From NCBI RefSeq assembly GCF_001953305.1, contig NZ_MTFE01000010.1, positions 2,513,716-2,577,715 of the forward strand: 64,000 nucleotides of DNA, in the 5' to 3' direction. Shown piece after piece: positions 5,048 through 34,425 of this stretch (the stretch's first letter is position 1; every line of letters begins with the position of its first letter). The notes under the pieces are model-generated. The model saw nothing but the letters and a program-made list of their open reading frames with translations. It did not search any database and was not told the DNA's origin. Source of the stretch: Cnuella takakiae (GTDB lineage Bacteria; Bacteroidota; Bacteroidia; Chitinophagales; Chitinophagaceae). The translations under genes and the position numbers were made by a program.

Positions 5048-5357
5048 AGGTTCGGTTTTGGTTTTTTGTTGCTGGTTTTGCGCTTGGAACAACCTTTTGA
5101 AGTTAGGTTCAACATGCAAGAGGTCTTGTGGAGGTTTGCGTTCTCCAGGTGGCAGCACCACTTGGAATAACAGGATAGAAAACAGGGATCAAGTTGGTTT
5201 AGGCCAAAAAGTTGTTTCCCGATTTCAAAAAATAATCCGCTCAACTGGACAACGCTCCAACAACCCAAAACCAAAGCTTTATTCGATCGCTTGAGGCGTG
5301 CTTACCGCCATCCTTTCTTTCATTGGTACACTTGCATATCAGCACATGGGTAATACT
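5048..5357. other. gene-free gap between convergent genes, weak heptad pattern
   Basis: 310 bases between the helicase and HK2 stops. Bases 5049-5090 are T/G-rich with a G recurring every seventh base, a weak version of the heptad arrays seen elsewhere; the A/C-rich stretch 5255-5275 could be its inverted partner. No gene, and no clear terminator hairpin, was seen. Confidence 0.45.
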
Positions 5358-7346
5358 TTATGCCATTGCCCCGCATTGTTTTTTGCTTAAATAGCTGGCG
5401 GGTGGGAGTGAAAAAGAAAAAATGGAAATCCCGTTTTCGCGGCGGTAATGCAAGCAACTGTGGTGGTTGGCCAAAAACTCACGGCATATCTGCAGCCCCA
5501 AACCATTGGAAATGCTATAAGACTTCAGGGGTTCTTTTGTTTGCAGCAGGGCATCAAGCGATTCGGCTTCAATACCTTTTCCTTCATCGGTGATGCTGAT
5601 ACAACAGGCCTTCGGGCTTGCAGCCTGGTAGCAAATAACAATGCGGCCCTGTGCCGGGCTTGCCTTTACCGCGTTGCTGAGCAGGTTGCGTAAAATGATC
5701 TCCAGTTGAAAATAGTCGGCTTCAACATAGGTGTCTTCTGGTACCTGCAGGCTTACGTATAGCTGCTTGTTCTGGATCATTTCCTGCAGCAGTCCCAGGC
5801 TGCCCGTCGTAACGGTATGCAGGGCCACCGGCTCGGTTTGGGTATTGATCTTTTGCTGCTGGCTTTTCGACCAGGTGAGCAGGTTTTCGAGGGTGATGGA
5901 AATCTGGCGGATGCTGCTGCTAATGTGCTGTACTTTTTGCTGCACCTTATTGGGTGGCAGTATCCCCATTTGCAGCAACTCGAGGGTGCCGTTGAGCGTT
6001 ACAAAAGGCAGTCGCAGATCGTGCGAGATGATGCCCAGCAGCTTGGTTTTTACTTCGCTGGTTTGCTCCAGTTCGGTGATGGCCATACGCAGCGCTTCGG
6101 TTTGCAGGGCCACTTCCTGCTCCAGCCTTTTTTTCTGGCTCCTGGTAAGCCGGAGCATTTTCTGGCTGAGTTCCTCCTTTTGTTTATTGAGCAGTTTTAC
6201 CCTGCCCGATAAATGGATATTCAAAAAAAGCAGTTCCAGGAAAAAGCCAAAACCAAGGGAGTAGTTCAACGAAACCCAGGTGAAATCTATCACATCGGCA
6301 AGGGCAAGGGTATAAGCCAGGTAGTTGATATTGGTAATGACGCTGCCCACGAAAAAAAAGCGCAACTGCTTTTCGCCCCTACGCCACCCATAGTATGCAT
6401 ATACCGACTGGAATGGCGGGACCACAATGGCTATCATGGTCACCGAATACGCAATGATTTGTTCCGGCAGCACCTTGGATGCCAGCAGCAAAAAGAACAG
6501 CAGGAACAACAGTACCCGCAGGGTATCGGTAAGCCGGGTACCTACCAGGCTGGCAGGCAGGTAATAACTGTTGAAGCCCAGGAAGGTAATCATGGATACG
6601 ATACAGAGTTCATAGCCATGGGTATTGATCCATACTTTGAAATTTATCGGCAACAGGTTGGCATAACCGTACATGAAGAGGTAAATAAAAAGCAGCAGGG
6701 AGCAGATATAGCCCATATAAAGCAGCGAAGCCATGCGGCGATAGGCCAGCACCTGCAGCATATTGTACACCATCAGGGTAAGGAAAATGCCCACCACTGT
6801 AAGCTCGGTAAGGTAGCGGAGCAGGTTGTGGATCTCCAGGCCTCGTGCATCGGTAAGGAACATGGGAACCACCAGCAGGTTCTGGTGTTTGTACCGCACC
6901 AGCACCTCCTGCGTGCCGCCATCAGTAGGAATGTGGAAAGCATAATTGAAGGATGGATCCACACCCAATGCATCGTTTACGGCGGCTCCTGCTCTTTTTT
7001 GTACAATGCGTCCTTTATACTGGTACCACAGCTCGATGGTATCGATATAGGTATTTTCAACCAGTACGCTTACGGTTTTATCGGGTGCTTCATGCAGGCT
7101 GAAACGGGCAAAATAGGCCTTGTCGGTAAAGCCGAAATTCTCTACTTCGCGTTTAATGCCGGCAGCACAGCGATGGGTTGCCATGGACCATACCTCTTCC
7201 ATGGAAGCGGTGCCGGTACTGTCAACATACCAGCAAGCTTTGTCGTTCAGGCTGATCAGTTCTTTGGATTGCACTGAAGTGCAAGGCGACTGGCCAAAGA
7301 TGGAGGCAGACAGCAGCAAAAGCCAACATAGCCACCATGCCCTCAT
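5358..7346 (-). CDS. 7TMR-DISM sensor histidine kinase (HK2)
   Basis: Membrane sensor kinase of 662 residues, paralogue of HK1. Signal peptide 1-19 (SIFGQ); extracellular DISMED2-like domain about 25-165 with ARFSLHEAP and DTIELWYQYKG; seven membrane segments about 180-380; coiled coil 385-430; HisKA with His442 in IISHDLRLPF; HATPase with N box NLLSNAVKAS (554-563), G1 DEGKG (587-591) and G2 NGLGLQICREF. Its ATG overlaps the RR2 stop by four bases (ATGA), so translation is coupled and the two are a cognate pair. No periplasmic PAS or cytoplasmic receiver is present. Confidence 0.93.
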   Translation of the reverse strand: MRAWWLCWLLLLSASIFGQSPCTSVQSKELISLNDKACWYVDSTGTASMEEVWSMATHRCAAGIKREVENFGFTDKAYFARFSLHEAPDKTVSVLVENTYIDTIELWYQYKGRIVQKRAGAAVNDALGVDPSFNYAFHIPTDGGTQEVLVRYKHQNLLVVPMFLTDARGLEIHNLLRYLTELTVVGIFLTLMVYNMLQVLAYRRMASLLYMGYICSLLLFIYLFMYGYANLLPINFKVWINTHGYELCIVSMITFLGFNSYYLPASLVGTRLTDTLRVLLFLLFFLLLASKVLPEQIIAYSVTMIAIVVPPFQSVYAYYGWRRGEKQLRFFFVGSVITNINYLAYTLALADVIDFTWVSLNYSLGFGFFLELLFLNIHLSGRVKLLNKQKEELSQKMLRLTRSQKKRLEQEVALQTEALRMAITELEQTSEVKTKLLGIISHDLRLPFVTLNGTLELLQMGILPPNKVQQKVQHISSSIRQISITLENLLTWSKSQQQKINTQTEPVALHTVTTGSLGLLQEMIQNKQLYVSLQVPEDTYVEADYFQLEIILRNLLSNAVKASPAQGRIVICYQAASPKACCISITDEGKGIEAESLDALLQTKEPLKSYSISNGLGLQICREFLANHHSCLHYRRENGISIFSFSLPPASYLSKKQCGAMA

Positions 7347-8083
7347 GGTTTTACCTGTTTGGCCACCAGCTCCAGGTGGCGGGCCAGTAGTTCGGCCCGG
7401 GAGCGTACCTCCATTTTTATAAAAATGTTCTTTAGATGAAAGTTCACGGTAGCACCGCTGATCTGGAGGTGAGCAGCCATTCTTTTATTATCCCAACCCT
7501 TCAGCAGCAGTTGATACAGATCCTGTTCCCTGTCTGTTAGCTGGGGCAATCTGGACTGCGCCGGTTTGTCTGCAGGTTGGTTGTACAGCAATCCTTCCAG
7601 TAATTGGTTGAATACGGGCCTGCTGATGGCTGGCGCCCCTACCCGCAGGCTGCTGAGAATATAATCCTGCAACACGTTCAGCGAATCGGCCTTGAGCAGG
7701 TAGCCCGCGGCACCTTCCCGGAAAGCATCCCGGATGGCTTCGCTTCCTTCGTGCAGGGTCAGCATCAGCACCTGGCAATGCTGGGGCAGATAGCGCTTAA
7801 TCAGGGGAATGCCGCTGATGCCGTTCATACCATCGAGGTTGATGTCGAGTAGCAGGGCATGGCATTGCGCCATTTCCTTGTGGTGGTTATAAATGGCCAG
7901 TTCAATGGACGGACTGGTAAAAGCGATCCTGACCCCTTCATTCTGCGAAAGGATCAGCGCCAGGTTGTCGGCAAACTGCGGATCGTCTTCTATAATGCCC
8001 AGGACCATTTCGGGATGGTGCGGGAAGTTGTTTTGGTTGCGTGCCTGCATTTTGATATTCGGTACTAAGGGCGTCATCATCAT
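7343..8083 (-). CDS. NarL/LuxR-type response regulator (RR2)
   Basis: DNA-binding response regulator, up to 246 residues. The receiver starts near residue 26 (MVLGIIEDDPQF), with phospho-accepting Asp80 in LLLDINLDGMNG, Thr109 and Lys131 (YLLKAD). The LuxR HTH (about 180-243) contains LTDREQDLY and GATVNFHLKNIFIKMEV, closely matching RR1. The N-terminal 25 residues look unstructured; starts at 8083, 8080, 8077, 8050 or 8008 are all possible and the first is not favoured by any visible signal. Overlaps HK2 by four bases. Confidence 0.9.
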   Translation of the reverse strand: MMMTPLVPNIKMQARNQNNFPHHPEMVLGIIEDDPQFADNLALILSQNEGVRIAFTSPSIELAIYNHHKEMAQCHALLLDINLDGMNGISGIPLIKRYLPQHCQVLMLTLHEGSEAIRDAFREGAAGYLLKADSLNVLQDYILSSLRVGAPAISRPVFNQLLEGLLYNQPADKPAQSRLPQLTDREQDLYQLLLKGWDNKRMAAHLQISGATVNFHLKNIFIKMEVRSRAELLARHLELVAKQVKP

Positions 8084-8337
8084 TAGGGTGGGGATTGCTC
8101 GTAAATGGTAGCTGGCAGCGGGAGGGTTTCCATTCTATTAAATTGCTGCCTTGCCAGTGGGTTAAAAATATTTCACAGGGTTTACTTCCCGTGTAGAATA
8201 AGTTGCAATCATGCGAACATCGAACGGTTGGGTTGGCACCTGTTTACCAGCATAAAGGGTAGCCTCTAGGTGCCGGGTTTGTTTTTATTTTTCTTTTTGC
8301 TAACGCTAATCCATGCAGTTGCGCACCTGTTCTGGCC

Positions 8338-8345
8338 TTACTTTG
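8338..8345 (+). promoter_or_regulatory. -7-like element TTACTTTG before the aldehyde dehydrogenase
   Basis: TTACTTTG ends five bases before the ATG at 8351. The same 8-mer sits four bases before the TMEM220-like gene at 29350. It favours the short start over in-frame upstream codons. Confidence 0.5.
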
Positions 8346-8350
8346 CAGCC

Positions 8351-9835
8351 ATGTTCCCCGACACCCAACTACCGGAAATCAATGCTGCCCTCGCTGCTTC
8401 AACAGCAGCCTTTGGCAGCTACCAGTTCTCCAGCCTGCAACAGCGGGCCAGCCTGCTGCGGGCCATTGCCCGTGAACTGGATGCCATCGGTCCCCAGATT
8501 ATTGAAACCGCACAGGGCGAAACCAACCTCCAACGTGGCAGGCTGCTGGTAGAGTTCAGGCGCACCCTGTTTCAGCTGACTTCCTACGCCGATGCCTGCG
8601 AACAGGGCAACTGGCTGGATATACGCATCGACCAGCCCGACTCGGAGCGCCAGCCGCCAAAACCCGATGTGCGCAAAATGCTGGTACCGGTAGGACCTGT
8701 GGTGGTGTTTGGCGCTTCCAATTTTCCTTTTGCTTATTCTACTGCCGGTGGCGATACAGCCTGCGCCCTGGCTGCCGGCTGTACCGTGGTGGTAAAAGCG
8801 CACCCGGGGCACCCTGCCACCAGCCAACTGGCCGCCGATGCTATCCATCGTGCCCTTGCTGGCGAAGGACTGCCTGCAGGGGTGTTTCAACATGTTTACG
8901 GTGCCTCTTTCGAGGTGGGCAAACAACTGGTACTCCATCCGCAGGTAAAGTCGGTGGGTTTTACCGGCTCTTTTCAGGGTGGCCGTGCCCTGTTTGACCT
9001 GGCTGCCAGCCGCAAGGAGCCCATCCCGGTATTTGCGGAAATGGGCTCGGTTAACCCTGTATTTATGTTACCCGGAAAATTGGGTGCCGAAACTGAATGG
9101 GCGGTAAACCAACTGGCGGCATCCATCACCACCAGCGTCGGGCAGTTTTGTACCAATCCCGGTTTGGTGGTCGGCATTCAGGGACCGGCACTGGAAAATT
9201 TTATACAGGCACTGGGGCAGAAGCTCGCCGAGACCGAACCCGAGCCCATGCTTCACAGCGGCATCGCCCAAAGCTTCAGGCAAAAAAGGGCTGCTGTAAT
9301 TGCCGGTGGCAAGATTACCCTGGCCGGTACCAACGAAACCGGGGGAGAAGGATTCAGCATTCCAACCTTGGCAACTACCAGTGGCGAAAACTTCCTGGCG
9401 CACCCGCACCTGCACGAAGAAATTTTTGGTCCTTACTCGCTGGTAGTGCAATGTAATGATGCCGCACAAATGGCTGCTGTGGCACAGGCGCTCGAAGGGC
9501 AACTTACCACCACCCTGATTGCTACTCCCGCCGAAGCTGCGGAGCATATAGAACTGGTACATATCCTGCAGGCCCGCTGTGGCCGGCTGGTGTTCAATGG
9601 CGTGCCCACGGGTGTGGAAGTATGCCTGGCTATGAACCATGGCGGTCCTTACCCTGCCACCACCGACAGCCGTTTTACGGCCGTTGGCGCCGATGGTATC
9701 CGCCGTTTTGCCCGGCCTTTTTGTTACCAGAACTGGCCCGACCACCTGCTGCCCACCGAACTGCAAAATGCTAATCCACTCGGGTTGTGGCGTACCGTAA
9801 ATGGTGAGTTGACAAAGTCCGGAATAGGTGAATAG
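8351..9835 (+). CDS. aldehyde dehydrogenase, 2-oxoglutarate semialdehyde type
   Basis: NAD(P)-dependent aldehyde dehydrogenase of 494 residues, most like the 2,5-dioxovalerate (alpha-ketoglutarate semialdehyde) dehydrogenase branch, which oxidises the last intermediate of pentose, glucarate or hydroxyproline breakdown to 2-oxoglutarate. Visible: cofactor-site segments FGASNFPFAYSTAGGDTA and VVKAHPGHPATS, general base Glu in FAEMGSVNP, and nucleophile Cys in VGQFCTNPG. No pathway partner is adjacent, so the substrate is inferred from the family only. The start at 8351 follows a promoter element and begins the family-typical N-terminus; a heptad repeat array begins eight bases before the stop codon. 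Confidence 0.88.
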   Translation: MFPDTQLPEINAALAASTAAFGSYQFSSLQQRASLLRAIARELDAIGPQIIETAQGETNLQRGRLLVEFRRTLFQLTSYADACEQGNWLDIRIDQPDSERQPPKPDVRKMLVPVGPVVVFGASNFPFAYSTAGGDTACALAAGCTVVVKAHPGHPATSQLAADAIHRALAGEGLPAGVFQHVYGASFEVGKQLVLHPQVKSVGFTGSFQGGRALFDLAASRKEPIPVFAEMGSVNPVFMLPGKLGAETEWAVNQLAASITTSVGQFCTNPGLVVGIQGPALENFIQALGQKLAETEPEPMLHSGIAQSFRQKRAAVIAGGKITLAGTNETGGEGFSIPTLATTSGENFLAHPHLHEEIFGPYSLVVQCNDAAQMAAVAQALEGQLTTTLIATPAEAAEHIELVHILQARCGRLVFNGVPTGVEVCLAMNHGGPYPATTDSRFTAVGADGIRRFARPFCYQNWPDHLLPTELQNANPLGLWRTVNGELTKSGIGE

Positions 9836-9871
9836 TAAATGGTGAGTAATGCGTTGTGATGGGTGAGTAGG
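9827..9871. repeat. heptad array B, left arm (GGTGAGT-like)
   Basis: Six consecutive 7-mers in phase (GGTGAAT, AGTAAAT, GGTGAGT, AATGCGT, TGTGATG, GGTGAGT). It overlaps the 3' end of the aldehyde dehydrogenase gene. Its reverse-complement partner is at 9983-10024; aligned over 25 bases the left arm matches the reverse complement of the right at 20 positions, and all five differences are transitions. Confidence 0.8.
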
Positions 9872-9982
9872 AGTGGCTGTAATAATTCAGCTGCGCTAGT
9901 TCTGGCGCTCATTGCTTTCTATCGGAACGATTGCACGCCCTGCCATTGTTATTTTGCAAACGAGCGTAATCTCCTAATAAAA

Positions 9983-10024
9983 TAATCACCAATCACTACT
10001 CACTATTCGCCATTCACCAATTCC
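9983..10024. repeat. heptad array B, right arm (YAATCAC-like)
   Basis: Phased 7-mers TAATCAC, CAATCAC, TACTCAC, TATTCGC, CATTCAC, CAATTCC, partner of the array at 9827-9871. It ends about 20 bases before the bshC promoter. The 111 bases between the arms show no gene. Confidence 0.8.
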
Positions 10025-10045
10025 CCTCATTCCCAAACCCTTCCC

Positions 10046-10053
10046 TACATTTG
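10046..10053 (+). promoter_or_regulatory. -7 element TACATTTG, leaderless bshC promoter
   Basis: Perfect TAnnTTTG match ending three bases before the ATG at 10057. An in-frame TTG at 10051 overlaps the element and is unlikely to be used. Confidence 0.65.
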
Positions 10054-10056
10054 CGC

Positions 10057-11664
10057 ATGCCATTTTCCGCATACACGCTGCCTTACGACCAAACCAACAG
10101 CTTTTCGCGTATCGTGCTCGATTATCTGCAGGGTGCAGCAGCCCTGAAACCTTTTTATGCCGCTCCGCCAACGCCGGAAGGATTGGCGCAGGTGCTGGCT
10201 GTACGGAGGCAGAAGCCGGTCAACCGCGAGGTACTGGCAACGGTACTGCAACAGCAGTATGCGGGCATGGAAACCCATGCATCTGTGGTACACAATATCG
10301 AAGCGCTGCAGGATGCCAACACCTTCACCGTTTGCACGGCACACCAGCCGAACCTTTTTACCGGCCCCCTTTATTTCCTGTACAAGATCCTGCATGCCAT
10401 CAGGCTTGCAGCACAGCTGGAAGCAGCACATCCCGGAAGCCGCTTTGTGCCGGTTTACTATATGGGTAGCGAGGACGCCGACCTGGATGAACTGAATCAT
10501 TTCTCGATACAGGGGAAACGTTATACCTGGCAAACGGATCAGAAAGGTGCCGTAGGCCGCATGGTTATCGATAATGCCATTCAGCAGTTGATCCATGAAG
10601 TGGAAGGCCAGCTGGCACCGTTTGAACAGGGAAAGGCAATTGCCGCAAGCCTGCGCCGCCATTTTGCCAAAGGCAACACCATACAGCAGGCCACTTTTGC
10701 GCTGGTAAATAAACTCTTTGGGTCCTTTGGATTGATCGTGCTGATCCCTGATAGCGCATCATTAAAGGCATTGATGTTGCCCGTTTTTGAACAGGAGCTT
10801 TTTGCACCCGTTTCCGGAACCCTGGTGGGCGATACTTCCGAAAGGCTGGCTGCACATTATAACGTACAGGCACACCCGAGGGAAATCAACCTGTTTTACC
10901 TGGAAGGCGATATCCGGGAAAGGATCATCCGGGAAGGCGATGATTTCCTTGTTAACAATACGGCTCTTCGGTTTTCTGCAGCTGAAATGAAGGTGCTGAT
11001 ACAGCAACACCCTGAGCGCCTAAGCCCCAATGTTATTCTCCGGGGATTGTTCCAGGAAACCATTCTGCCCAATATTGCCTTTATCGGCGGCGGTGGCGAG
11101 CTGGCCTACTGGCTGCAACTGAAAGATCTGTTTGAGCATTATGATGTTTCCTTCCCGGTGCTGGTATTGCGCAATTCCTTTTTGCTTTTAGAGGAAAAAT
11201 GGCAGGAGCGTATCGACCGGCTGGGCTTTTCCGTTGGCGATTGTTTTCAGAAAACCGATAACCTGGTGAACCTGCTTGCCCGCAGGCAGGCCGAGCATCC
11301 GCTTACTTTGAATGGCAAGATGGAGCAGGCTGAAGCCCTGTTTGAAGCCATCCGCAGCCAGGCTTCTGCCATCGATCCTACTTTATCGGCACATGTGGCG
11401 GCACTGAAAGCTGCATCGCTGAAAAAGCTGAAGGTGCTGGAACAAAAAATGCTGCGTGCTGAAAAGCGCAAGCACGCCGACAGCCGACGTCAGATTGAAG
11501 CCATACGGCAGCAATTGTTTCCCGGTGACGGACTGCAGGAAAGGGTAGACAGCTTCCTGTATTACTATGCTGTTTATGGCCCGCAGCTGATAGCAGATTT
11601 ATACCAGCATTCAGGTGCACTGGAGCAGCAGTTTACCATACTGCCGCTTAGCGGGGAAGCCTAG
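10057..11664 (+). CDS. bshC: bacillithiol biosynthesis cysteine-adding enzyme BshC
   Basis: Putative cysteine ligase of bacillithiol synthesis, adding Cys to glucosaminyl-malate; 535 residues, normal for the family. Diagnostic segments are VCTAHQPNLFTGPLYFLYKI near residue 90 and YYMGSEDADLDELNHFSIQG near residue 130, followed by a Rossmann-like core and a C-terminal helical region (about 440-500: KLKVLEQKMLRAEKRKHADS) that forms the coiled-coil dimer interface. bshA and bshB are not in the window. Its 3' end overlaps the convergent gene ending at 11648 by 17 bases. Confidence 0.95.
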   Translation: MPFSAYTLPYDQTNSFSRIVLDYLQGAAALKPFYAAPPTPEGLAQVLAVRRQKPVNREVLATVLQQQYAGMETHASVVHNIEALQDANTFTVCTAHQPNLFTGPLYFLYKILHAIRLAAQLEAAHPGSRFVPVYYMGSEDADLDELNHFSIQGKRYTWQTDQKGAVGRMVIDNAIQQLIHEVEGQLAPFEQGKAIAASLRRHFAKGNTIQQATFALVNKLFGSFGLIVLIPDSASLKALMLPVFEQELFAPVSGTLVGDTSERLAAHYNVQAHPREINLFYLEGDIRERIIREGDDFLVNNTALRFSAAEMKVLIQQHPERLSPNVILRGLFQETILPNIAFIGGGGELAYWLQLKDLFEHYDVSFPVLVLRNSFLLLEEKWQERIDRLGFSVGDCFQKTDNLVNLLARRQAEHPLTLNGKMEQAEALFEAIRSQASAIDPTLSAHVAALKAASLKKLKVLEQKMLRAEKRKHADSRRQIEAIRQQLFPGDGLQERVDSFLYYYAVYGPQLIADLYQHSGALEQQFTILPLSGEA

Positions 11665-13055: not shown

Positions 13056-13090
13056 CCAAAAGTTTTATGGTTGGTTGTTGGTTTGTGGTG

Positions 13091-13098
13091 CAAAATAA
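13091..13098 (-). promoter_or_regulatory. -7-like element TTATTTTG upstream of purE
   Basis: On the minus strand TTATTTTG lies 35 bases before the purE ATG and downstream of the tolC terminator. One base differs from TAnnTTTG. Confidence 0.4.
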
Positions 13099-13206: not shown

Positions 13207-13229
13207 GAAGTAGTTGTAATTACATCCAT

Positions 13230-14552: not shown

Positions 14553-14721
14553 TCAGGTCTTCTTGTTTGTTCCTAGCAGTTAGTTGGTACGGTCTTATAG
14601 CGATTTTGTTAATTCACGCAAAGGTCGCGGAAGAGCAAAAGGCGAAAAGGAAAATATCCAAATATCTCTCCTTCTTTCCCACGCACCATTTTACGCTACC
14701 GCATATCATCTATTCCCTCGC

Positions 14722-19140: not shown

Positions 19141-19172
19141 GGAAATTTGGGCTTTGTGATTTCGGATTCCGG
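19141..19172. repeat. heptad array C, left arm (TCGGATT-like)
   Basis: Phased 7-mers GGAAATT, TGGGCTT, TGTGATT, TCGGATT, CCGG. The partner with opposite orientation is at 19209-19243. Lies between acrA and purK. Confidence 0.65.
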
Positions 19173-19208
19173 CAGTTTGAACCAATGGTAAGCGCTTTGC
19201 AATTGACA

Positions 19209-19243
19209 ACTACCGATATCCGAAATCCCAGATCCGCAATCAT
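19209..19243. repeat. heptad array C, right arm (AWATCCG-like)
   Basis: Phased 7-mers ACTACCG, ATATCCG, AAATCCC, AGATCCG, CAATCAT. It runs up to and just into the purK stop codon. Its ATCCGAAATC core is the reverse complement of GATTTCGGAT in the left arm. Confidence 0.75.
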
Positions 19244-20382: not shown

Positions 20383-20424
20383 GGACCATTGACGATGGAG
20401 AATGGACCATGGATGGGGAGAGAT
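20383..20424. repeat. heptad array D, left arm (GGACCAT-like)
   Basis: Phased 7-mers GGACCAT, TGACGAT, GGAGAAT, GGACCAT, GGATGGG, GAGAGAT. The partner is at 20477-20511; the core ACCATTGACGATGG pairs with the partner almost completely. Confidence 0.8.
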
Positions 20425-20476
20425 TCTTGGGATTGTATGGAACTATAGGGGTTGCTATCCGTTCAAAGGGTACACT

Positions 20477-20511
20477 CGCCATTATCAATCGTCCATCATC
20501 AATGGTCAATT
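20477..20511. repeat. heptad array D, right arm (RTCMATC-like)
   Basis: Phased 7-mers CGCCATT, ATCAATC, GTCCATC, ATCAATG, GTCAATT. It sits in the divergent promoter region between purK and the T9SS-exported protein. Confidence 0.8.
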
Positions 20512-22483: not shown

Positions 22484-22555
22484 GGGCCTGAGCTTTGTAT
22501 TGTGCAAAAAAACAGGAATTCTTAATAGGGGCGGGTATCAAGTAATTAGATAACA

Positions 22556-22653
22556 GACCACGGACCACAGACAACGGACGACAGACAAGGGACCATGGAT
22601 GACAGACAACTGGCGACATAAGCCTTGTGGCCTGTCGTCCATGGTCCCTTGTC
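22556..22653. repeat. heptad array E with 22-bp hairpin arms (GACNACR)
   Basis: Nine phased 7-mers of consensus GACNACR occupy 22556-22618; complementary heptads occupy 22623-22657. Bases 22584-22605 and 22632-22653 are reverse complements over 22 bases, with the only deviation a G-T pair, around a 26-base loop. No coding potential. Confidence 0.85.
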
Positions 22654-24020: not shown

Positions 24021-24354
24021 GTTAAGCGTTTAGGATTTGGAGTTTGGTGTTTTTCATTTCTTGTTTTTGGTTGGGGTAATTGGGGTTATTAAGGCGGCTA
24101 TGTTTGGGTGGGTTAAGGGCTTTGGGGGTTATCGTTTGTTTTAAGAAAATCATGCAAGCGCAATTTTGTGCGGAAGCGGCCGTTTTTTATTGCAGTCCTG
24201 GTGTAGGAACAATCATTTGTGTAACGGGTAAAACGAGGCCGGGACAAGCTTTCGACGTATAATCATTTAATCTTATCCAAATAATGTTTGTTTCCACCGA
24301 TTGTGTACGGCTGTCCATTCATTTTTTCCGAACTTGCCCCTGGATTTCTTAAAC
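24021..24354. repeat. heptad array F (24026-24074) in a gene-free gap
   Basis: Phased T/G-rich 7-mers (GCGTTTA, GGATTTG, GAGTTTG, GTGTTTT, TCATTTC, TTGTTTT, TGGTTGG) start six bases after the hppD stop. No inverted partner was found here. The rest of the gap to 24354 shows no gene; it should contain the promoter of the next gene, but no clear -7 match was seen. Confidence 0.65.
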
Positions 24355-25539: not shown

Positions 25540-25555
25540 TGGCTGGTGGTTGCGG

Positions 25556-25584
25556 AAAGCTATAAGCTTAAAGCTGCAAGCATC
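25556..25584. repeat. heptad array G (AAAGCTN)
   Basis: Phased 7-mers AAAGCTA, TAAGCTT, AAAGCTG, CAAGCAT, just after the transpeptidase stop. The same motif family recurs at 25717-25800 and 28902-28936. Confidence 0.7.
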
Positions 25585-25655
25585 AAATGGGTGTACGCAA
25601 AAATTATTGCACAGAAAACCTGCTCATGACACTTGCGAAAGCAATACATTTCCAC

Positions 25656-25690
25656 AAGCGCCCCTTCTGTTAGGAAGGGGCGTTTGTTTG
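25656..25690 (+). terminator. terminator after the YafK-TonB gene
   Basis: AAGCGCCCCTT and AAGGGGCGTTT arms around a short loop, followed by a T-rich tract; one mismatch in the arms. Confidence 0.75.
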
Positions 25691-25716
25691 TTATGTACAG
25701 AATGGAAATCCATTGA

Positions 25717-25800
25717 TCCTTACGTGCAGCTTGTAGCTAAAAGCTTGCTGCTACTTCCTTACGTGCAGCTTGTAGCTAAAAGCTTGCTGCTACTTCCTTA
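25717..25800. repeat. 39-bp tandem repeat, two perfect copies, abutting aspartate kinase
   Basis: Copies at 25717-25755 and 25756-25794 are identical; the first six bases of a third copy (TCCTTA) include the aspartate kinase stop codon. Each copy is built of AGCTTGT/AGCTAAA/AGCTTGC heptads. The duplication appears recent since no base differs. Confidence 0.92.
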
Positions 25801-27054: not shown

Positions 27055-27092
27055 GTTGAGGTAAAATTTGGTGCAAAGATGAGGATGTGAAG

Positions 27093-27148
27093 GTTTTTTG
27101 TTTTTTGTTTTTTGTTTGGAGTTTGGAGTTTGGAGTTTGGAGTTTGGA
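27093..27148. repeat. heptad array H, left arm: GTTTTTT x3 and GTTTGGA x5
   Basis: Eight perfect heptads in one phase, three GTTTTTT then five GTTTGGA, 56 bases. The inverted partner is at 27324-27361. Confidence 0.92.
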
Positions 27149-27197
27149 ACAAACTTTCCAAAGTACGAAAGATATTCAGGGCCTATTAGGAACTGTC

Positions 27198-27218
27198 ATG
27201 CCGAACTTGTTTCGGCAT
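27198..27218. repeat. REP-like palindrome ATGCCGAA-N5-TTCGGCAT
   Basis: Eight-base arms ATGCCGAA and TTCGGCAT around CTTGT. I recall the wider motif GTCATGCYGAACTTGTTTC recurring between genes in related Bacteroidota genomes; this is memory, not a search. The gap 27055-27363 contains this and array H and no gene. Confidence 0.6.
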
Positions 27219-27323
27219 CTCCTTCTAAATGAGAGTGTCTTTATTCAGAAGGGGGTGCCAAAACAATTTCGTTGGGACCATATCTCGCCGGTAACAAATC
27301 CATTTTCCAACAGGAGTTCGCTT

Positions 27324-27361
27324 CAAAAAACCAAAAACTAAAAACAAGAAACCAAAAACCA
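27324..27361. repeat. heptad array H, right arm (CCAAAAA)
   Basis: Phased 7-mers CAAAAAA, CCAAAAA, CTAAAAA, CAAGAAA, CCAAAAA, ending three bases before the fucosidase stop. It is complementary to the GTTTTTT half of the left arm. Confidence 0.85.
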
Positions 27362-27363
27362 TT

Positions 27364-28821: not shown

Positions 28822-28858
28822 ACCCTTAAGCAACGGAAAAGGGGCCATATATAAAAAA

Positions 28859-28890
28859 ATGCAGGCCTGTTTTTATCAACAGGCCTGCAT
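28859..28890 (-). terminator. terminator after the TMEM220-like gene
   Basis: Arms ATGCAGGCCTGTT (28859-28871) and AACAGGCCTGCAT (28878-28890) are perfect 13-bp complements; on the minus strand a run of seven T follows. Confidence 0.85.
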
Positions 28891-28901
28891 TTGGTTGGAG
28901 C

Positions 28902-28936
28902 GATGCTTCAAGCTTTTAGCAACAAGCTGCAAGCCT
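28902..28936. repeat. heptad array I (CAAGCTT-like)
   Basis: Phased 7-mers GATGCTT, CAAGCTT, TTAGCAA, CAAGCTG, CAAGCCT, the same family as arrays at 25556 and 25717. Confidence 0.7.
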
Positions 28937-28954
28937 GGGAATATCGTTTAAAAA

Positions 28955-29350
28955 TTATGCGTATGCGCTTCGGGGTGTTGTTTTTCGTGAAGCAAAATAA
29001 TTGACCAGGAAAGTCCCGATCAGGATCAGTAGTCCGAAGAACTCGCGGGTGTCTTCAATCCACGGTTTGGTAGCCTTCATGGTTTGGGCAATGTTTTCGG
29101 CATCATGCTGGTTAAGCCAGTCAATAACCCCATCGTGCGTAAACAGCAGGTAAAAAGCATAAACGCTGTACAGGATGGTGGCTATAAGGTAAGCCTTAGG
29201 GTAAAAGCGGCCTTTGGCTGCCTGGAAGCAGAGCAAAGTGCCAAAGAGGTAAATGGGCGCCCACAGCCAGGGATCGGGGTCGTTGTACTGGAGCACGGCA
29301 GATACCAGGAACAAAAAGGCAAACAGGTAGTTGAAGATTCGAAGGGCCAT
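28955..29350 (-). CDS. TMEM220-family small membrane protein
   Basis: 131 residues with about four hydrophobic segments and the conserved QYNDPDPWLWAPIYLFG loop characteristic of the transmembrane 220 family, whose function is not known. The C-terminal part includes KPWIEDTREFFGLLI. The promoter element TTACTTTG at 29355 ends four bases before the ATG and the hairpin at 28859 ends the unit, so it is monocistronic. Confidence 0.85.
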   Translation of the reverse strand: MALRIFNYLFAFLFLVSAVLQYNDPDPWLWAPIYLFGTLLCFQAAKGRFYPKAYLIATILYSVYAFYLLFTHDGVIDWLNQHDAENIAQTMKATKPWIEDTREFFGLLILIGTFLVNYFASRKTTPRSAYA

Positions 29351-29354
29351 GATT

Positions 29355-29362
29355 CAAAGTAA
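29355..29362 (-). promoter_or_regulatory. -7-like element TTACTTTG before the TMEM220-like gene
   Basis: Minus-strand TTACTTTG, then AATC, then ATG at 29350; same 8-mer as at 8338. Confidence 0.5.
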
Positions 29363-29492
29363 AAATCTTTTGCAATACAATGCGTGGCAAAAGGAAGCTA
29401 TTGGGAATGATTTATATCAGCTGGCACAACATGTCGGTGTTTGGCGCACCGAAGGAGGGGCGGGTTTGGCTTTGGCCGGCGATAAATCAATT

Positions 29493-29523
29493 ACCCCTGA
29501 CAGGTTTTGAAAACCTGTCAGGG
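29493..29523. repeat. perfect REP-like palindrome, 15-bp arms
   Basis: CCCCTGACAGGTTTT, a single central G, AAAACCTGTCAGGGG: both arms match over all 15 bases. No T-run follows on either strand, which argues against an ordinary terminator, although it lies 14 bases downstream of the cupin stop. I recall similar CTGACAGGTTTT palindromes dispersed in Bacteroidota genomes. Confidence 0.8.
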
Positions 29524-29536
29524 GTTCCAGGCAGGG

Positions 29537-29860
29537 TTAAATCTTATAATCTTCCCGCTCCGGGGTAAACACATCCAGCAGCAGGCAATCTGTAATGGAG
29601 CGACCGCCATGCACCACACCACCGGGTATCACGGCCACCACACCGGGCTCAAGGATGCGGGTTTCATTGCCAACGGTCAGCTCAAATTTTCCTTCCAGCA
29701 CATGTGCCACCTGTTCGTGCGGGTGCTGGTGCATGGCAAAATCAAGACCGGCCTTCATTTCCCAATAAGCGAAGGTCATGGTTCCGGTATGGATAAACCT
29801 GGCTTTGGCGCCAGGCTGGAATTCTTTGAACGGTAATTCGGGCACTTGGGTAAAAGACAT
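29537..29860 (-). CDS. small cupin-domain protein
   Basis: 107-residue single-domain cupin. Motif 1 has [21 protein letters not shown] with two His and a Glu that can bind a metal; motif 2 is [16 protein letters not shown] with the last His ligand. Such proteins bind small ligands or act as isomerases or dioxygenases; nothing here chooses among them. Transcription reads toward the palindrome at 29493. Confidence 0.88.
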
Positions 29861-29896
29861 AAGGATGTTTTGCAGGCAAAGGAAGGTAAATCAGGC

Positions 29897-30160
29897 ATGA
29901 ATTTTAAGGTTCTTATCAAAAAGCCTATGGAAAGAGATCCCAAACAAACTGAACAGCAAACACCCGAAACAGATGCTGCCGACCGAAAGGCTTTGGCAGG
30001 CAATGGCCAGATGGATGCGCAGAAGATCGAAGCAGCGCACCAACAAGCAGAACAGGATATGGAAGCCGATGCCGAGTTGACCGCAAGCAGTCCCAACGAT
30101 GATTTGGACGAAGGCGAAACAGCCAGACTGGGAGAAGACATCCCGGACATCATTGGCTAG
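29897..30160 (+). CDS. small acidic hydrophilic protein, unknown function
   Basis: Up to 87 residues with no hydrophobic segment, rich in Glu, Asp, Gln and Ala (DAQKIEAAHQQAEQDMEAD), predicted disordered or helical. The first ten residues (MNFKVLIKKP) differ in character from the rest, so translation may really start at the ATG at 29927 (MERDPKQTEQQ). It resembles in composition the next small gene; both look like stress-associated hydrophilic proteins, which is inference only. Confidence 0.55.
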   Translation: MNFKVLIKKPMERDPKQTEQQTPETDAADRKALAGNGQMDAQKIEAAHQQAEQDMEADAELTASSPNDDLDEGETARLGEDIPDIIG

Positions 30161-30283
30161 ATCAGCGTTCAAACGGCACCGACCAGGAACCGGGTAGTAG
30201 CCAGGTACAAATGTTTGAATATAGGGCCAGGTGGTAATGGCCAGTGCGGATGCATATTCTTTTAACCAACAAAACACCCAACT

Positions 30284-30640
30284 ATGAGCAAGGAGAGACA
30301 GGAAAACTTTAATAAAGAACGCAAGAGCGATGCGCGGAAAGAATTTGAAGAACAGGATAATGCCGGACGCTTTGCCGGCGAAGACTTGGATGCACAGGCA
30401 GCAAGGGCACAGGCCGAAGATAAAATCAGGCAGGTGGAAGGCAGCCTTTCGGAGCAACACACCGTGCGCGAGGTAATACCCGAAGATGCGCCGCCACCCA
30501 TGGATGGTGCGCAACCCAATAACGAAGGCAGCGAGGCACAAAACGTAAGCACCCAGCGTGCCGATGCCGGGCAACTGTTGAACAATGACCGGAGCATGGA
30601 TGATGCAATTGGCAAGGCCAACCAGGGTGGCAACCGATAG
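30284..30640 (+). CDS. small hydrophilic protein, unknown function
   Basis: 118 residues, highly charged, no signal peptide or membrane segment. N-terminus MSKERQENFNKERKSDARK is basic/acidic repetitive; the middle is acidic and the C-terminus contains NNDRSMDDAIGKANQGGN. Composition is like hydrophilins or KGG-type stress proteins, but no family is recognised. It ends 70 bases before a strong terminator at 30711. Confidence 0.65.
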   Translation: MSKERQENFNKERKSDARKEFEEQDNAGRFAGEDLDAQAARAQAEDKIRQVEGSLSEQHTVREVIPEDAPPPMDGAQPNNEGSEAQNVSTQRADAGQLLNNDRSMDDAIGKANQGGNR

Positions 30641-30710
30641 TGCCGGCCTCCGTCATTGTTGTTGAAGGCAAGACTGCTAAATTTACCTGCAGGCTTGCCA
30701 GCCTTTACGG

Positions 30711-30748
30711 AAAGCGTTGTGTTTCTGAAAGATGCACAACGCTTTTTT
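30711..30748 (+). terminator. terminator after the small hydrophilic gene
   Basis: AAAGCGTTGTG and CACAACGCTTT form 11 bp around a 13-base loop, followed by TTTTAT. The remainder of the gap 30641-30960 holds the promoter at 30897 and no recognised gene. Confidence 0.82.
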
Positions 30749-30896
30749 ATTGCCGGACAAAAAGGGTGTGAAGTGGTGTTACAACCAGGAAAACACTAAT
30801 GTTAAATTTCAAAAGGCAAAGGTTTGCTTGCTGCTGTAGCAGCTATCCTTTTACATTTTGACACCAATCAAACTTTAATTGTATGAAACGCTCCAA

Positions 30897-30904
30897 TACA
30901 TTTG
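30897..30904 (+). promoter_or_regulatory. -7 element TACATTTG for the VOC-rlpA unit
   Basis: Perfect TAnnTTTG match giving a leader of about 50 bases before the ATG at 30961. It lies inside an 19-codon frame beginning at 30883, which is therefore unlikely to be translated. Confidence 0.5.
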
Positions 30905-30960
30905 TACCCTGCCGGCTAAGTTTTCCTTTATCTTTTTTCCTTACCAACAGGTAACTATTT

Positions 30961-31341
30961 ATGGTAATCAGTCATATTGCATTGTATGTTTCCGACCTGA
31001 AAAGGAGTACTGCTTTTTATGCTGGTGTACTTCAGTTGCAACCTTTGGAAGAGCCATTCAAGTTGGGCATACACAGCTGGTTTTCGTTGGGCGATAGGTG
31101 TCAGTTGCACCTGATTGCAGGTGCCAGGCAGGTACCGGCATTGCACATCAACCATCACCTGGCTTTACGCACCGACAAGTTTGATAACTATCTGGAACGC
31201 CTAACCGAAAATAGCATAGAATACTTTACTCCCGACCATCAACCCAATACCGTATCTGTGCGACCTGATGGTATCCGGCAGGTGTTTTTCCAGGACCCGG
31301 ATGGCTACTGGCTGGAGTTGAACGATGAACCTTTAACCTGA
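30961..31341 (+). CDS. VOC/glyoxalase-family protein
   Basis: 126-residue single VOC module. N-terminal half [21 protein letters not shown]-terminal half with [15 protein letters not shown]; the metal-ligand positions correspond to His5, a central His/Glu region and Glu in YWLEL. The family includes glyoxalase I, fosfomycin-resistance enzymes and dioxygenases; this short form gives no substrate clue. It is 14 bases upstream of the rlpA-like gene and probably shares its transcript. Confidence 0.88.
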
Positions 31342-31355
31342 AACAGTATACGAAC

Positions 31356-31709
31356 ATGAAGGTGTTGCCTTGTTTGCTTTTGGTGCTCTTGGTTGTCAGT
31401 TCTTGTGCCCAACCGCTGGTGGAGCAAGGTGCCGCATCTTATTACGCCGATAAGTTCAATGGACGGAAAACCGCATCAGGAGCTATTTTCCGCAATCGCA
31501 AGAAAACGGCTGCACATAAAACTTTGCCATTTGGTACCCGCGTCAAGGTTACCAATTTGAAGAATGGCCGCTCGGTAAAAGTGCGGATCAATGATCGGGG
31601 TCCCTTTGTTAAAGGCAGGATCATTGATCTGTCTAAAAAGAGTGCGCGAAAGATCGGGATGTTACGGGACGGCGTAAGCGAAGTTCGCCTTTCTTACAAA
31701 TTGAAGTGA
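31356..31709 (+). CDS. RlpA-like lipoprotein with double-psi beta-barrel
   Basis: 117-residue lipoprotein: signal with lipobox VVSSC, then a DPBB domain with [19 protein letters not shown] and the conserved acidic residue in [18 protein letters not shown]. RlpA proteins are septal lytic transglycosylases that cut denuded glycan strands. There is no SPOR domain, so targeting to the septum through SPOR is not supported. Confidence 0.9.
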
Positions 31710-31853
31710 GATTTCGTTGGATAAGTGACACTAACTCCTACCTGTACTCTTTATTGTGTGGAAGGTTGCATTTTTTATTTGGCACAATAGTTGGCAAGAG
31801 CTGCCCGGTTTCCGGAAGCCACTATCCTTAACACTTAACCAAATACAGCAGTC

Positions 31854-32171
31854 ATGAAAATGATCCTGAAAAGCACCACTGCTCTTGCACTTGCGTCTAT
31901 AGCTCTTTTTTCTTTCAAGCCCCATACTGCATCAAGCCTCAAAGGCAAAATTGCACCTGCTGAAAGTGTTGGTACCGTTTGGGCCATTGCAGGCACCGAT
32001 TCGTTGAAAACAAGTGCTATCGAAGGCGAGTTCAGCTTTGCTGAAATCAAGCCTGGTACTTATAAGATCGTAGCGGAAGCAAAAGCTCCTTACAAAAACC
32101 TGGAGAAAGAAGGCGTTGAAGTAAAAGAAGGCGAAACCACTGACCTGGGTACCCTGATGCTCCAACAATAA
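31854..32171 (+). CDS. small secreted carboxypeptidase-regulatory-like protein
   Basis: 105 residues: signal peptide (MKMILKSTTALALASIALFS) and one beta-sandwich module of carboxypeptidase-regulatory type (EGEFSFAEIKPGTYKIVAEA). Such modules are common in Bacteroidota envelope proteins; a free-standing one has no assigned role. Its own strong terminator follows at 32182. Confidence 0.75.
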   Translation: MKMILKSTTALALASIALFSFKPHTASSLKGKIAPAESVGTVWAIAGTDSLKTSAIEGEFSFAEIKPGTYKIVAEAKAPYKNLEKEGVEVKEGETTDLGTLMLQQ

Positions 32172-32181
32172 TTTAGGATAT

Positions 32182-32225
32182 AAAAGCCTGCCTTGCATTT
32201 GTGACGATGCAGGGCAGGCTTTTTA
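32182..32225 (+). terminator. long terminator hairpin, 17-bp arms
   Basis: AAAAGCCTGCCTTGCAT and ATGCAGGGCAGGCTTTT pair over 17 positions with one G-T pair, then T-rich sequence. Confidence 0.85.
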
Positions 32226-32360
32226 TTAATATTTCAAAGTAATAAGATAAATCGGGTACAACGGAAAACAATGTACGAACCACAAGTACCACGGTTGATT
32301 ATTGTACTTTGAAATGAGGCTGTTTTCGATAATGATATTGGTATCATCCGTAACAAAAGT

Positions 32361-33074
32361 TTAGTAGGCCTCCACCTGGCCGCCACCGCTGGTAACGATT
32401 TCTTTTGTTCCGGGGTTTCCTTTGTAACGGATGCGTGCACCCCTGGTAGCTTCTGCAAAAAGCATATCTGAAACATGAACAGTAGCCTGTGCGCCGCCGG
32501 AGGCTGAAATGTCTACTTCGATTGCCGTTGTTTCTGCGGCTTGCAATTCGGACCCACCCGAAAGTGTTCCAAATAAATTATTCGTTTGTCCTTTTATCCA
32601 CAACCTGGAAGCTCCCGAAAGGTCAAACTGGGTTTGTATGGATGTACCTTCCACCCTTGCTTTTGATCCACCTGATAACACCATTCTGAGGTTAGCGGCA
32701 TTATTTTCAAAACCTTTTATTTCCCCTTCAGCAGCCCCGGACAGCACAACGGAAGACAGCTGCGGCAGGGTTATATCTATTTCCACCACATCGCGCTGGA
32801 TGCGGTTGCGCTCAAAGTCAAACTCCAGTGTATTGCCGGGTTTCATCTGGAGGCGCAAATCATCAATATCCCGATTACAACCCTGGGCGCTAATGCTAAA
32901 AGTTTGGCCTTTAGTAATGTTCAGGTGAATGGCACTGCCTGCAACAATACGGCTGAAGCCTGTTTCAGTATAGGTTCGTGTCGTGTTTCCATCGCAGGGT
33001 TTTTCTTTTTCGCAGGCACCCAGCAGGAGGGTGGCGCCCAGCAGGGCGGAAAGCAGCAATTTATTTTGGTACAT
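32361..33074 (-). CDS. GIN-domain (DUF2807) lipoprotein, putative adhesin head
   Basis: 237-residue lipoprotein from the ATG at 33074: signal with lipobox LLLGAC, then a repetitive beta-helix region (GFSRIVAGSAIHLNITKGQ, LSSVVLSGAAEGEIKGFEN, FDLSGASRLWIKG) typical of the DUF2807/GIN domain annotated as a putative autotransporter adhesin head. Cell-surface or periplasmic location is expected; function is unproven. A -7 element lies at 33135, giving a leader of about 55 bases. Confidence 0.88.
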   Translation of the reverse strand: MYQNKLLLSALLGATLLLGACEKEKPCDGNTTRTYTETGFSRIVAGSAIHLNITKGQTFSISAQGCNRDIDDLRLQMKPGNTLEFDFERNRIQRDVVEIDITLPQLSSVVLSGAAEGEIKGFENNAANLRMVLSGGSKARVEGTSIQTQFDLSGASRLWIKGQTNNLFGTLSGGSELQAAETTAIEVDISASGGAQATVHVSDMLFAEATRGARIRYKGNPGTKEIVTSGGGQVEAY

Positions 33075-33134
33075 GGTTAAGGGTTTTATAAGCAGTTCAT
33101 GGTTTTGCAGGCCCAAACGGGCTGCAGGTGCGGA

Positions 33135-33142
33135 CAAAACTA
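33135..33142 (-). promoter_or_regulatory. -7 element TAGTTTTG for the GIN lipoprotein
   Basis: Minus-strand TAGTTTTG matches TAnnTTTG, about 60 bases before the ATG at 33074 and 117 bases from the divergent prfB start. Confidence 0.45.
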
Positions 33143-33244
33143 CTTGCGGCACCAGTCCTGGTCAAGCATAAAGAGGACGAGCGGCAAGGCTTGTTAAGCT
33201 TTTTGATAAAATGATTGCCGGAACTTTGATATGACCGTTTGGCC

Positions 33245-33252
33245 TAAATTTG
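33245..33252 (+). promoter_or_regulatory. -7 element TAAATTTG, leaderless prfB promoter
   Basis: Perfect TAnnTTTG match, six bases (CGCCCT) before the prfB ATG at 33259. Confidence 0.65.
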
Positions 33253-33258
33253 CGCCCT

Positions 33259-34354
33259 ATGACACAAGAGCATATTAAAGATATGAGGGACCGCCTCCTG
33301 GTCCTGAGGAGGTTTCTTTGACGTCGAGAACCGCCGCTTCAAAATAGAAAATGACCGCCAGCTGTCGCTGGCACCCGGTTTTTGGGATGATAATGCCCGT
33401 GCAACCGGCATCCTGAAAGAAATCAAGCTGAACGAGTTCTGGATTGACCTGTACACCGAAACGGAAAATGCAGTAGAGGATTTCGCTGTGCTGTTCGAAT
33501 TCTGGAAAGAAGGAGAGGGCGCTGAAGAGGACGTGAAAGTGGCTTATGAAAAAGCACTTGCAGCCCTTGAAGAAACGGAGTTCAAAAGTACCCTCAACCA
33601 GCCCGAAGATGAGCTGCCTGCCGTATTGCAGATCAACTCGGGAGCGGGTGGTACCGAAAGCCAGGACTGGAGCGAGATGCTGGCCCGCATGTACCGCATG
33701 TATGGCGAAAAGCAGGGCTGGAGCGTTTCCATCCTTGATTGGGTGGATGGCGATGGTGCCGGTATCAAAACCGCCACCCTCCAGTTTGAAGGGCCTTTTG
33801 CTTACGGTTTCCTGAAAGCCGAAAGCGGGGTACACCGCCTGGTGCGCATCTCGCCCTTCGATTCCAACGCCCGCCGCCACACTTCTTTTGCTTCGGTATT
33901 TGTATACCCGCTGGTAGACGATACCATCAATATCGAAATAAAGGACAGCGAGGTGAAAATGGAAACCGCCCGAAGTGGTGGCGCCGGTGGGCAGAACGTA
34001 AACAAGGTGGAAACCAAGGTAATGCTTACCCACTTGCCTACAGGCTTTGTGGTGGTGTGCCAAACAGAGCGTACCCAGCTGGGCAACCGCGAAAAGGCCA
34101 TGCAGATGCTGAAGAGCCGCCTGTACGAAGAAGAACTGCGCAAACGCGAAGAGCTGAAAAATGCTGCCAACGCCAGCAAGAAAAAAATTGAATGGGGTTC
34201 GCAGATCCGCAGCTATGTGTTTCACCCGTATAAAATGATCAAAGATCACCGTACTGATTACGAGGTTGGCAATATCCAGCCTGTAATGGATGGTGAACTG
34301 GATGGTTTCATCAAAGCTTATTTGATGCAGCAGAAAGAAGAAGAAGCCGCGTGA
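33259..34354 (+). CDS. prfB: peptide chain release factor 2 with programmed +1 frameshift
   Basis: Release factor recognising UGA and UAA. The first 20 codons ([20 protein letters not shown]) end at an in-frame TGA at 33319-33321; skipping one base there continues in the +1 frame from GAC at 33320 to the stop at 34354, giving 364 residues. The site CTT TGA C with AGGAGG at 33307-33312, three bases before CTT, is the classic autoregulatory arrangement: slow decoding of UGA by scarce RF2 favours the shift. RF2 features follow: SPF tripeptide in [10 protein letters not shown] for stop recognition and GGQ in [16 protein letters not shown] for peptidyl-tRNA hydrolysis. It must be annotated as one gene, not a pseudogene. 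Leaderless promoter upstream. Confidence 0.97.
33307..33322 (+). promoter_or_regulatory. RF2 recoding site: AGGAGG-TTT-CTT-TGA-C
   Basis: Internal Shine-Dalgarno-like AGGAGG pairs with 16S rRNA and, with the 3-base spacing to CTTTGAC, promotes slippage of the Leu-tRNA by +1. Notable because initiation in this group rarely uses a Shine-Dalgarno sequence. Confidence 0.93.
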
Positions 34355-34425
34355 TGAGTAATGAGTAATGAGTAATGAGTAATGAGTAAGTAAAGAACAT
34401 CTACTCATCACTCATTACTCATCAC
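34351..34425. repeat. heptad array J: ATGAGTA x5 with inverted partner
   Basis: Five exact ATGAGTA copies run from 34354 to 34388, starting in the prfB stop codon. Bases 34351-34374 and 34402-34425 are reverse complements over 24 positions with one mismatch, so the transcript can fold into a long hairpin after prfB. Confidence 0.92.

Follow-up and report, generated by a model that had tools for sequence, protein, structure and literature searches.

Paired heptameric arrays of Cnuella takakiae as probable stem arms of hairpin elements that resemble rRNA intervening sequences

Background

The subject of this report is a group of short intergenic repeat arrays in a stretch of 64,000 nucleotides from Cnuella takakiae (contig NZ_MTFE01000010.1, positions 2,513,716 to 2,577,715; the whole stretch is called the window), and their relation to a family of small genes, PF05635 / TIGR02436 (four-helix-bundle / S23 / 23S-rRNA intervening-sequence protein). 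The closest described system is the intervening sequence (IVS) of 23S rRNA genes. The Coxiella IVS is reported to hold an S23p gene and to have complementary ends forming a 28-bp stem, inside which RNase III cuts; it also carries tandem heptameric repeats, whose number depends on the strain and at the first of which the cut falls (PMC4990558). The same source describes a PF05635-type protein as a five-fold ring and gives no known function for S23/IVP proteins outside retroelements (PMC4990558).

Like the IVS, the elements described here have a PF05635-type gene in a stem loop formed by complementary ends, a similar size (428 nt for the IVS) and heptameric repeats, which in Coxiella lie at the RNase III site. 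Unlike the IVS, they are found between protein genes rather than inside a 23S rRNA gene, in many copies per genome and with a different unit in each; most pairs are without a gene, and cutting by RNase III is here putative. A PF05635 / S23p gene is present in eight gene-bearing elements of the own genome and in no window pair; complementary, stem-forming ends are found in pairs of both kinds.

The initial annotation of the window knew of no description of such arrays as a class, but heptameric repeats have been published from cyanobacteria, Xanthomonas, Beggiatoaceae, Geobacter and the Coxiella IVS. The short tandemly repeated repetitive sequences (STRR) of cyanobacteria are heptameric. Simple repeats of GGGAATC in Xanthomonas and GGGGAYT in Nostoc are reported (PMC4692102), the former with similar placement, inverted pairs and overlap with stop codons, as are TAACTGA repeats in Beggiatoaceae (PMC4679880) and heptanucleotide elements in Geobacter (PMC2700814). 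The arrays studied here share with these repeats, including STRR and long simple sequence repeats (LSSR), the 7-base tandem unit, the position in gaps at many loci and near stops, some inverted pairs, and a length and sequence that vary between relatives. They differ from the published reports, where one unit is followed per species, in having many units with one period and a tied gene family.

We found that paired arrays of this kind bracket copies of one small dispersed gene, of the PF05635 family, in three bacterial phyla. Heptamer repeats as such are in print; no paper linking heptamer arrays outside rRNA with PF05635 genes came up in searches of open-licence PMC texts.

Methods

The host genome (G000) has a size of 5.7 Mb. 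The window together with 40 stretches of 20 kb was used as a sample of 864 kb, containing 564 gaps and 128 kb of gap DNA. Genes were taken from a simple gene caller, arrays from a lag-k segment finder, and dinucleotide shuffles of the gaps were used as controls. Each of the ten window gaps listed in the initial annotation was compared with 300 such shuffles of itself.

Inverted flanks around a gene were measured as the best inverted match (IR) between the two flanks, with a cut-off score of at least 14. The flank size was 300 bp in the own-genome tests and 250 bp for the genus set and the set from cyanobacteria and Azospirillum. The genus set consists of 60 loci from six genomes (12/14, 10/11, 14/17, 9/10, 12/16 and 3/10 of the matches), the phylum set of 30 PF05635 loci, chosen as the best-scoring matches and not at random, in a draw of 296 genomes, and the other-phyla set of 13 of 23 hits, from cyanobacterial plasmids plus Azospirillum. 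Three loci (L105, L109, L113) were too short and were dropped from part of the flank tests, and one self-overlapping pair was dropped from the swapped-flank control, leaving 299 of 300.

As ortholog anchor for the window region we used lysC instead of a fucosidase, which was rejected as too diverged. Among 41 lysC loci the nearest relative was Paracnuella aquatica, also of the Chitinophagaceae (lysC protein 77%), with which the window region is syntenic.

Results

The own genome contains eight PF05635 copies, none of them in the window. An array of period 7, 8 or 9 lies beside all eight, and on both sides of seven; the units are AAAGTCCGG, TTAGCTG, GGACCAT, GAGTAAT, GGTTTGG, TTAGCTAA, GGTGATT and AAGTACG. 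The flanks reach IR 14 in seven of the eight, the exception being L092 with 13.6. In Paracnuella, one array pair with IR 21.2 has a PF05635 gene, interrupted by a stop, between its 8-mer arms. The same cut-off is reached by 49 of the 60 loci of the genus set, by 12 of the 13 loci from cyanobacterial plasmids plus Azospirillum, and by 18 of the best 30 matches in the phylum draw. Of the 73 genus and other-phyla loci taken together, 53 have arrays scoring at least 8.5 on both sides, and 71 have such an array on one side or both. Among the controls, IR 14 was reached by 0/137 size-matched own genes, 5/299 swapped flanks and 3/116 small genes of 20 other Bacteroidota genomes, one of these three being itself PF05635-like. 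For own genes of any size the number was 6 of 632, including one PF05635 gene.

The family has members in 17 of 18 genomes of the genus and in 232 of 296 of the phylum, counting the own genome, and in none of 14 control genomes. In cyanobacteria, one such gene (L216) lies antisense between the two genes of ribonucleotide reductase, another (L217) separates cas6 from cas4, and a third (L224) stands between cas10 and a gene of cmr3 type. The window pairs and the own-genome PF05635 copies examined all lie between protein genes. A separate observation concerns positions 9963-10592 of L031, where a gene of 210 aa is flanked by identical palindromic repeats (AACCTATAAGG); its product is putatively a Y1 transposase of the kind associated with repetitive extragenic palindromic (REP) sequences.

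The two arms have the same period in 51 of 53 loci (7/7 in 39, 8/8 in 11, 6/6 in one; unequal in two). Median arm length was 32 nt in the own genome, 30.5 in the phylum, 33 in the genus and 35 in the other phyla. The median copy number was 4.4 in 87 arrays of period 7 and likewise in 27 arrays of period 8, by which a fixed copy number is not separable from a fixed stem length. The G-rich arm comes first in 73 of the 86 loci with IR of at least 14 and the C-rich arm in three, ten being undecided. Between co-directional neighbours the gene is in sense orientation in 40 cases and antisense in eight (p=3e-6).

Gene and arms also behave as one unit. Copies within a genome are alike over the element alone, with 69-80% identity over 455-507 bp (L199/L205/L209 and L200/L207 in G009; L162/L164 in G003). 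We collected 31 alignments of 380-600 bp, counting both directions and cross-genome pairs and hence not independent. The start of the alignment falls within 15 bp of an outer arm end in 25 of them, and its end does so in 20. The terminal inverted repeats thereby mark the ends of a dispersed PF05635 unit.

Four sites were compared between close species. At site 1, inspected by eye, G101 is without gene and arms, G136 and G199 have both, and the hairpin seen in G125 and G223 is gene-less and belongs to another 8-mer family. At site 2 the flanks of G136 and G199 are 87-90% alike, while the genes are 63% alike ungapped (69.5% over 223 aligned bp) and the arms are unrelated (left-left score 6.6), each pair nevertheless matching itself (16.6 and 21.8); gene and arms here look as if exchanged together. 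Sites 3 and 4 are less tidy. In the former, again by eye, G136 and G125 are without the gene and the right arm yet retain the left unit, and in the latter the left arm of G101 is re-expanded to about nine copies of TTCAGGAG with no matching right arm.

The array observation itself holds, both by its significance in the window and by the 864-kb genome sample. A lag of 7 gave 100 gap arrays against a shuffle mean of 0.7 (maximum 1), compared with 24 against 0.7 for lag 8, 11 against 0.6 for lag 9 and 3 against 0.6 for lag 6; the signals at lags 14, 21 and 28 are harmonics. In a previous count, which covered 464 kb and relied on a cruder gene caller, lag 7 yielded 38 arrays against 0.2 shuffled, where the rate in coding sequence predicts 1.7. 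The excess at lag 7 that the initial annotation proposed to look for is present genome-wide, but its "strict" period has to be reworded as mostly 7, also 8 and 9. The ten listed gaps are given below in window coordinates (strand unassigned unless stated; 0/300, exceeded by none of the 300 shuffles).

5045 to 5281: inverted pair, G/T-rich arm 5045-5068 and partner 5258-5281; IR 15.2 (0/300), lag-7 p=0.06
9821 to 10024: degenerate heptamer arms, GGTGAAT/GGTGAGT at 9821-9860 and AATCACC at 9984-10024; IR 20.2 and lag-7 15.8 (each 0/300)
19145 to 19240: arms of TCGGATT / CCGAAAT type, 19145-19177 and 19208-19240; IR 15.4 (0/300), lag-7 p=0.003
20384 to 20507: arms of GACCATG / CATNGTC type, 20384-20412 and 20479-20507; IR 15.8 (0/300), lag-7 p=0.003, RNA fold z -2.2
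22548 to 22653: AGACAAC / GGACCAT array 22548-22610 and inverted partner 22627-22653; lag-7 16.4 and IR 20.4 (each 0/300), RNA fold z -7.3
24021 to 24072, plus strand: degenerate GTTTNGN array just past the stop of an hppd-like gene, no partner found; lag-7 9.8 (p=0.003), best IR p=0.41
25549 to 25800: AAGCTNN array 25549-25586 and inverted partner 25764-25793; IR 14.6 and lag-7 9.8 (each 0/300)
27093 to 27361: GTTTTTT/GTTTGGA array 27093-27148 and partner AAAAACC 27326-27361, around a palindromic core at about 27186-27213; lag-7 42.4 and IR 19.8 (each 0/300)
28903 to 28936: AAGCTNN-like stretch named in the initial annotation; lag-7 p=0.12, not significant; the significant IR is a palindrome at 28857-28892
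34351 to 34431: ATGAGTA array 34351-34389 over the prfB stop and inverted partner 34402-34431; lag-7 29.8 and IR 21.8 (each 0/300), RNA fold z -7.0

The lag-7 signal is significant (p<=0.003) in eight of these gaps (9827, 19141, 20383, 22556, 24026, 25556, 27093 and 34351) and not in those at 5050 and 28902. An inverted partner above all shuffles is present in nine, one of which (28902) has an ordinary GC-rich palindrome instead of an array pair, which leaves eight array-type pairs. The gap at 24026 has no inverted partner. Folding was weak in three other stretches (z -1.0 for 9800-9945, -0.8 for 14600-14700 and -1.1 for a single L096 arm), the first and third of these being without the partner arm. 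No Rfam match was found in the window. Two further observations concern the window. A perfect 39-bp tandem duplication (window 25717-25800, Tandem Repeats Finder) holds the right-hand arm 25764-25793, and the release-factor-2 frame at 33488-34354 begins at position 72 of the PCRF domain profile, a late start which would presumably fit a programmed frameshift upstream.

In the genome sample, period-7 arrays were found in 75 of the 564 gaps, namely in 57/356 tandem, 12/101 convergent and 6/107 divergent gaps. Their position at gene ends, as first described, is borne out. Read from the edge of the gap towards its middle, the strand is the G-rich one, independently of the direction of the neighbouring gene: at the left edge G exceeds C in 31 arrays with the reverse in 10, and at the right edge the numbers are 9 and 44 (Fisher p=1.5e-8). 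Among 20 inverted pairs the G-rich arm is first in 15, the C-rich arm in one, and four are undecided. An absolute polarity was rejected, being reversed in 1/20 pairs and 3/86 loci.

A common period without a common sequence is supported by the data. The further claim that each gap has its own sequence stands only in part, as many units do occur with one period, but GTTTGGA in three copies is exact at 12 own-genome loci and has one mismatch at four more (16 in total; reversed control 0), and private sequences for every gap were rejected accordingly. Of 37 relatives searched, 7 also carry this triple unit, and these are all members of the same genus. Orthologous gaps may hold arrays of unrelated units: behind the hppd-like gene the unit is of GTTTGGA type here and of GTCGGAA type in Paracnuella (by eye), in agreement with the fast turnover that had been predicted. 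The pair immediately upstream of lysC is made of 8-mers in Flaviaesturariibacter flavus and of 7-mers in F. aridisoli.

Two side observations concern array arrangement. In strain DXS (L077, 11263-11955) an arm-spacer-arm unit is repeated three times head to tail around terminator-like hairpins, as judged by eye, between convergent genes and in partly masked sequence. In L069 (12035-12091, 14839-14930 and 15509-15573) long 9-mer arrays of AAGAGGTTG / AACCTTTTG type lie next to 7-mer arrays in the same gaps.

Gene-less pairs are the majority of all pairs and include every pair of the window. They agree with the gene-bearing elements in period, in polarity and in the length of the arms, and several unit sequences occur in both; of six tested units from gene-bearing copies, four recur exactly in 7, 3, 4 and 5 of 98 other arrays and two in none.

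A second dispersed unit is the palindromic core GTCATGCCGAACTTGTTTCGGCATC, present at 23 places of the own genome (L282-L304). An array lies within 160 bp upstream of 13 of these copies and in 10 of the 13 ends 33-39 bp before the core. Eight of the 13 have GTTTGGA-type units, while GTGATTG, TTTGGTG, GTGAGTG, AGTTTTT and a 9-mer occur once each. One core with different units implies that the unit is exchangeable. The array as 5' untranslated region of a leftward gene at the core was rejected, since 10 of the 13 array-bearing copies lie between convergent genes according to the gene caller.

Discussion

We propose that the arrays are probably the fast-changing stem arms of dispersed, IVS-like hairpin elements. 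In its full form such an element would consist of an arm, a short spacer, the PF05635 four-helix-bundle gene, a short spacer and an inverted arm, each arm, some 30-35 nt long, being built of about 4 to 5 tandem units that measure 7 or, less often, 8 or 9 bases, usually with the G-rich arm first. Gene and arms would be dispersed together as a single unit of roughly 450-560 bp, which is found between genes and also within operons. The gene-less pairs, all window pairs included, may be read as gene-less relatives of presumed common descent. In RNA the arms would form a long stem, cleavable by RNase III by analogy with the published rRNA IVSs; an RNase III gene is present in the own genome. Such cutting, as we propose, would make insertions between co-transcribed genes tolerable. 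The arms would change fast through slippage in unit steps, their complementarity being kept by selection for a stem or by arm-to-arm copying, so that period and pairing matter and not the sequence. The element is also presumed to move, in whatever mode. The association with the gene, the equal period, the polarity, the boundaries and the turnover with pairing kept are direct observations. Pairing is kept while the arm sequence changes, in line with the initial annotation, which was on the whole partly right and missed the polarity and the tie to PF05635 genes.

Several results weigh against this proposal. L090 passes the IR cut-off through a different repeat because its own 9-mer arms lie farther out, beyond the 300-bp flank, and 12 of the best 30 phylum matches stay below IR 14. 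Flanks of at least 14 occur around 5 of 631 own genes outside the PF05635 family, two of them with 8-mer arrays, and the own-genome PF05635 gene is antisense to co-directional neighbours in four of six cases and sense in two. A target-site duplication was not in excess over shifted controls at 61 loci, and nearly identical element copies were not found. No PF05635 remnant was found in gene-less pairs: the sole hits with E<1e-3 in 864 kb were to two copies already known, and a set of 18 spacers contained one known copy and, in another spacer, a 34-bp match to an element. For lack of such remnants, the idea that gene-less pairs are gene-bearing elements in recognisable decay was rejected. In 20 genomes sampled with 40 kb each, array density was not significantly correlated with PF05635 number (Spearman 0.15, p=0.54; 0.14 against 0.44 arrays per kb for the groups with low and high PF05635 number, p=0.10), and such a dependence was likewise rejected. 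Finally, the window array at 27093 belongs to the palindromic-core family, as do some other gene-less arrays.

The lack of a significant correlation between array density and PF05635 number would suit another explanation, in which the arrays are plain slippage microsatellites with 7-base units favoured, template switching gives rise to the inverted partners, and PF05635 elements insert at such places or tolerate them. Slippage with a 7-base polymerase contact has been offered as a guess (Mrazek 2007, as cited in PMC4679880), and the nine TTCAGGAG copies at site 4, with the right arm unmatched, are a perfect re-expansion of the kind slippage would give. We regard this explanation as unlikely given that none of the size-matched genes has such flanks, that the period is equal in both arms, that the arms sit at the element ends and that their polarity is fixed. 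It is quite unlikely, too, that the array hairpins are mainly terminators or stabilisers of 3' ends, with PF05635 genes riding in their loops. The arrays do begin at gene ends, are scarcer in divergent gaps and fold strongly, and in Paracnuella the ortholog of one window pair takes the form of a hairpin with a T-run behind it (by eye), but ordinary terminator-like palindromes already adjoin the arrays in the gaps 25540-25797 and 28822-28954 (by eye), and the spacer makes up half or more of the element length. An element driven by a reverse transcriptase, with arrays from iterative copying, is suggested by the likeness of PF05635 to Avd, a protein of diversity-generating retroelements (PMC10053308); with no match to PF00078 in the own genome at E<=0.001, spread in this way is highly improbable and was rejected.

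The proposed hairpin elements can also be set beside known mobile classes. REPIN/RAYT systems have a conserved arm sequence and a Y1 transposase gene. The similarity lies in many gene-less units with inverted arms, few gene-bearing ones, and a polarity; the difference is that here each gene-bearing copy has its own unit, the period is conserved together with the pairing, and the gene encodes a four-helix bundle. Terminal inverted repeats are shared with classical insertion sequences and miniature inverted-repeat transposable elements, while the target-site duplication and an own transposase are absent, the gene being PF05635 / TIGR02436. The nearest solved structure for the PF05635 protein is 2gsc (Xanthomonas XCC0516).

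The period of seven may stem from polymerase slippage or from the PF05635 protein with its five-fold ring. In TRAP, each subunit reads one triplet. A tentative and rather doubtful joint reading is that about five heptamers per arm suit the putative ring, one unit per subunit, and that rRNA IVSs, cyanobacterial STRRs, Xanthomonas heptamers and the Bacteroidota arrays are one family with its gene-less remains, a class of mobile elements whose ends are set by period and pairing and not by sequence.

Conclusion

For heptameric repeats in unrelated bacteria, polymerase slippage is so far the sole explanation offered for the 7-base step. The link described here connects this poorly explained repeat class with a little-understood element of mobile appearance. 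If heptamer pairs are indeed the ends of PF05635 elements, two unexplained observations would merge, and tests could address jointly what the protein does, why the period is seven and how the repeats spread. Many genes annotated as 'four helix bundle protein' would then also have a structural context.

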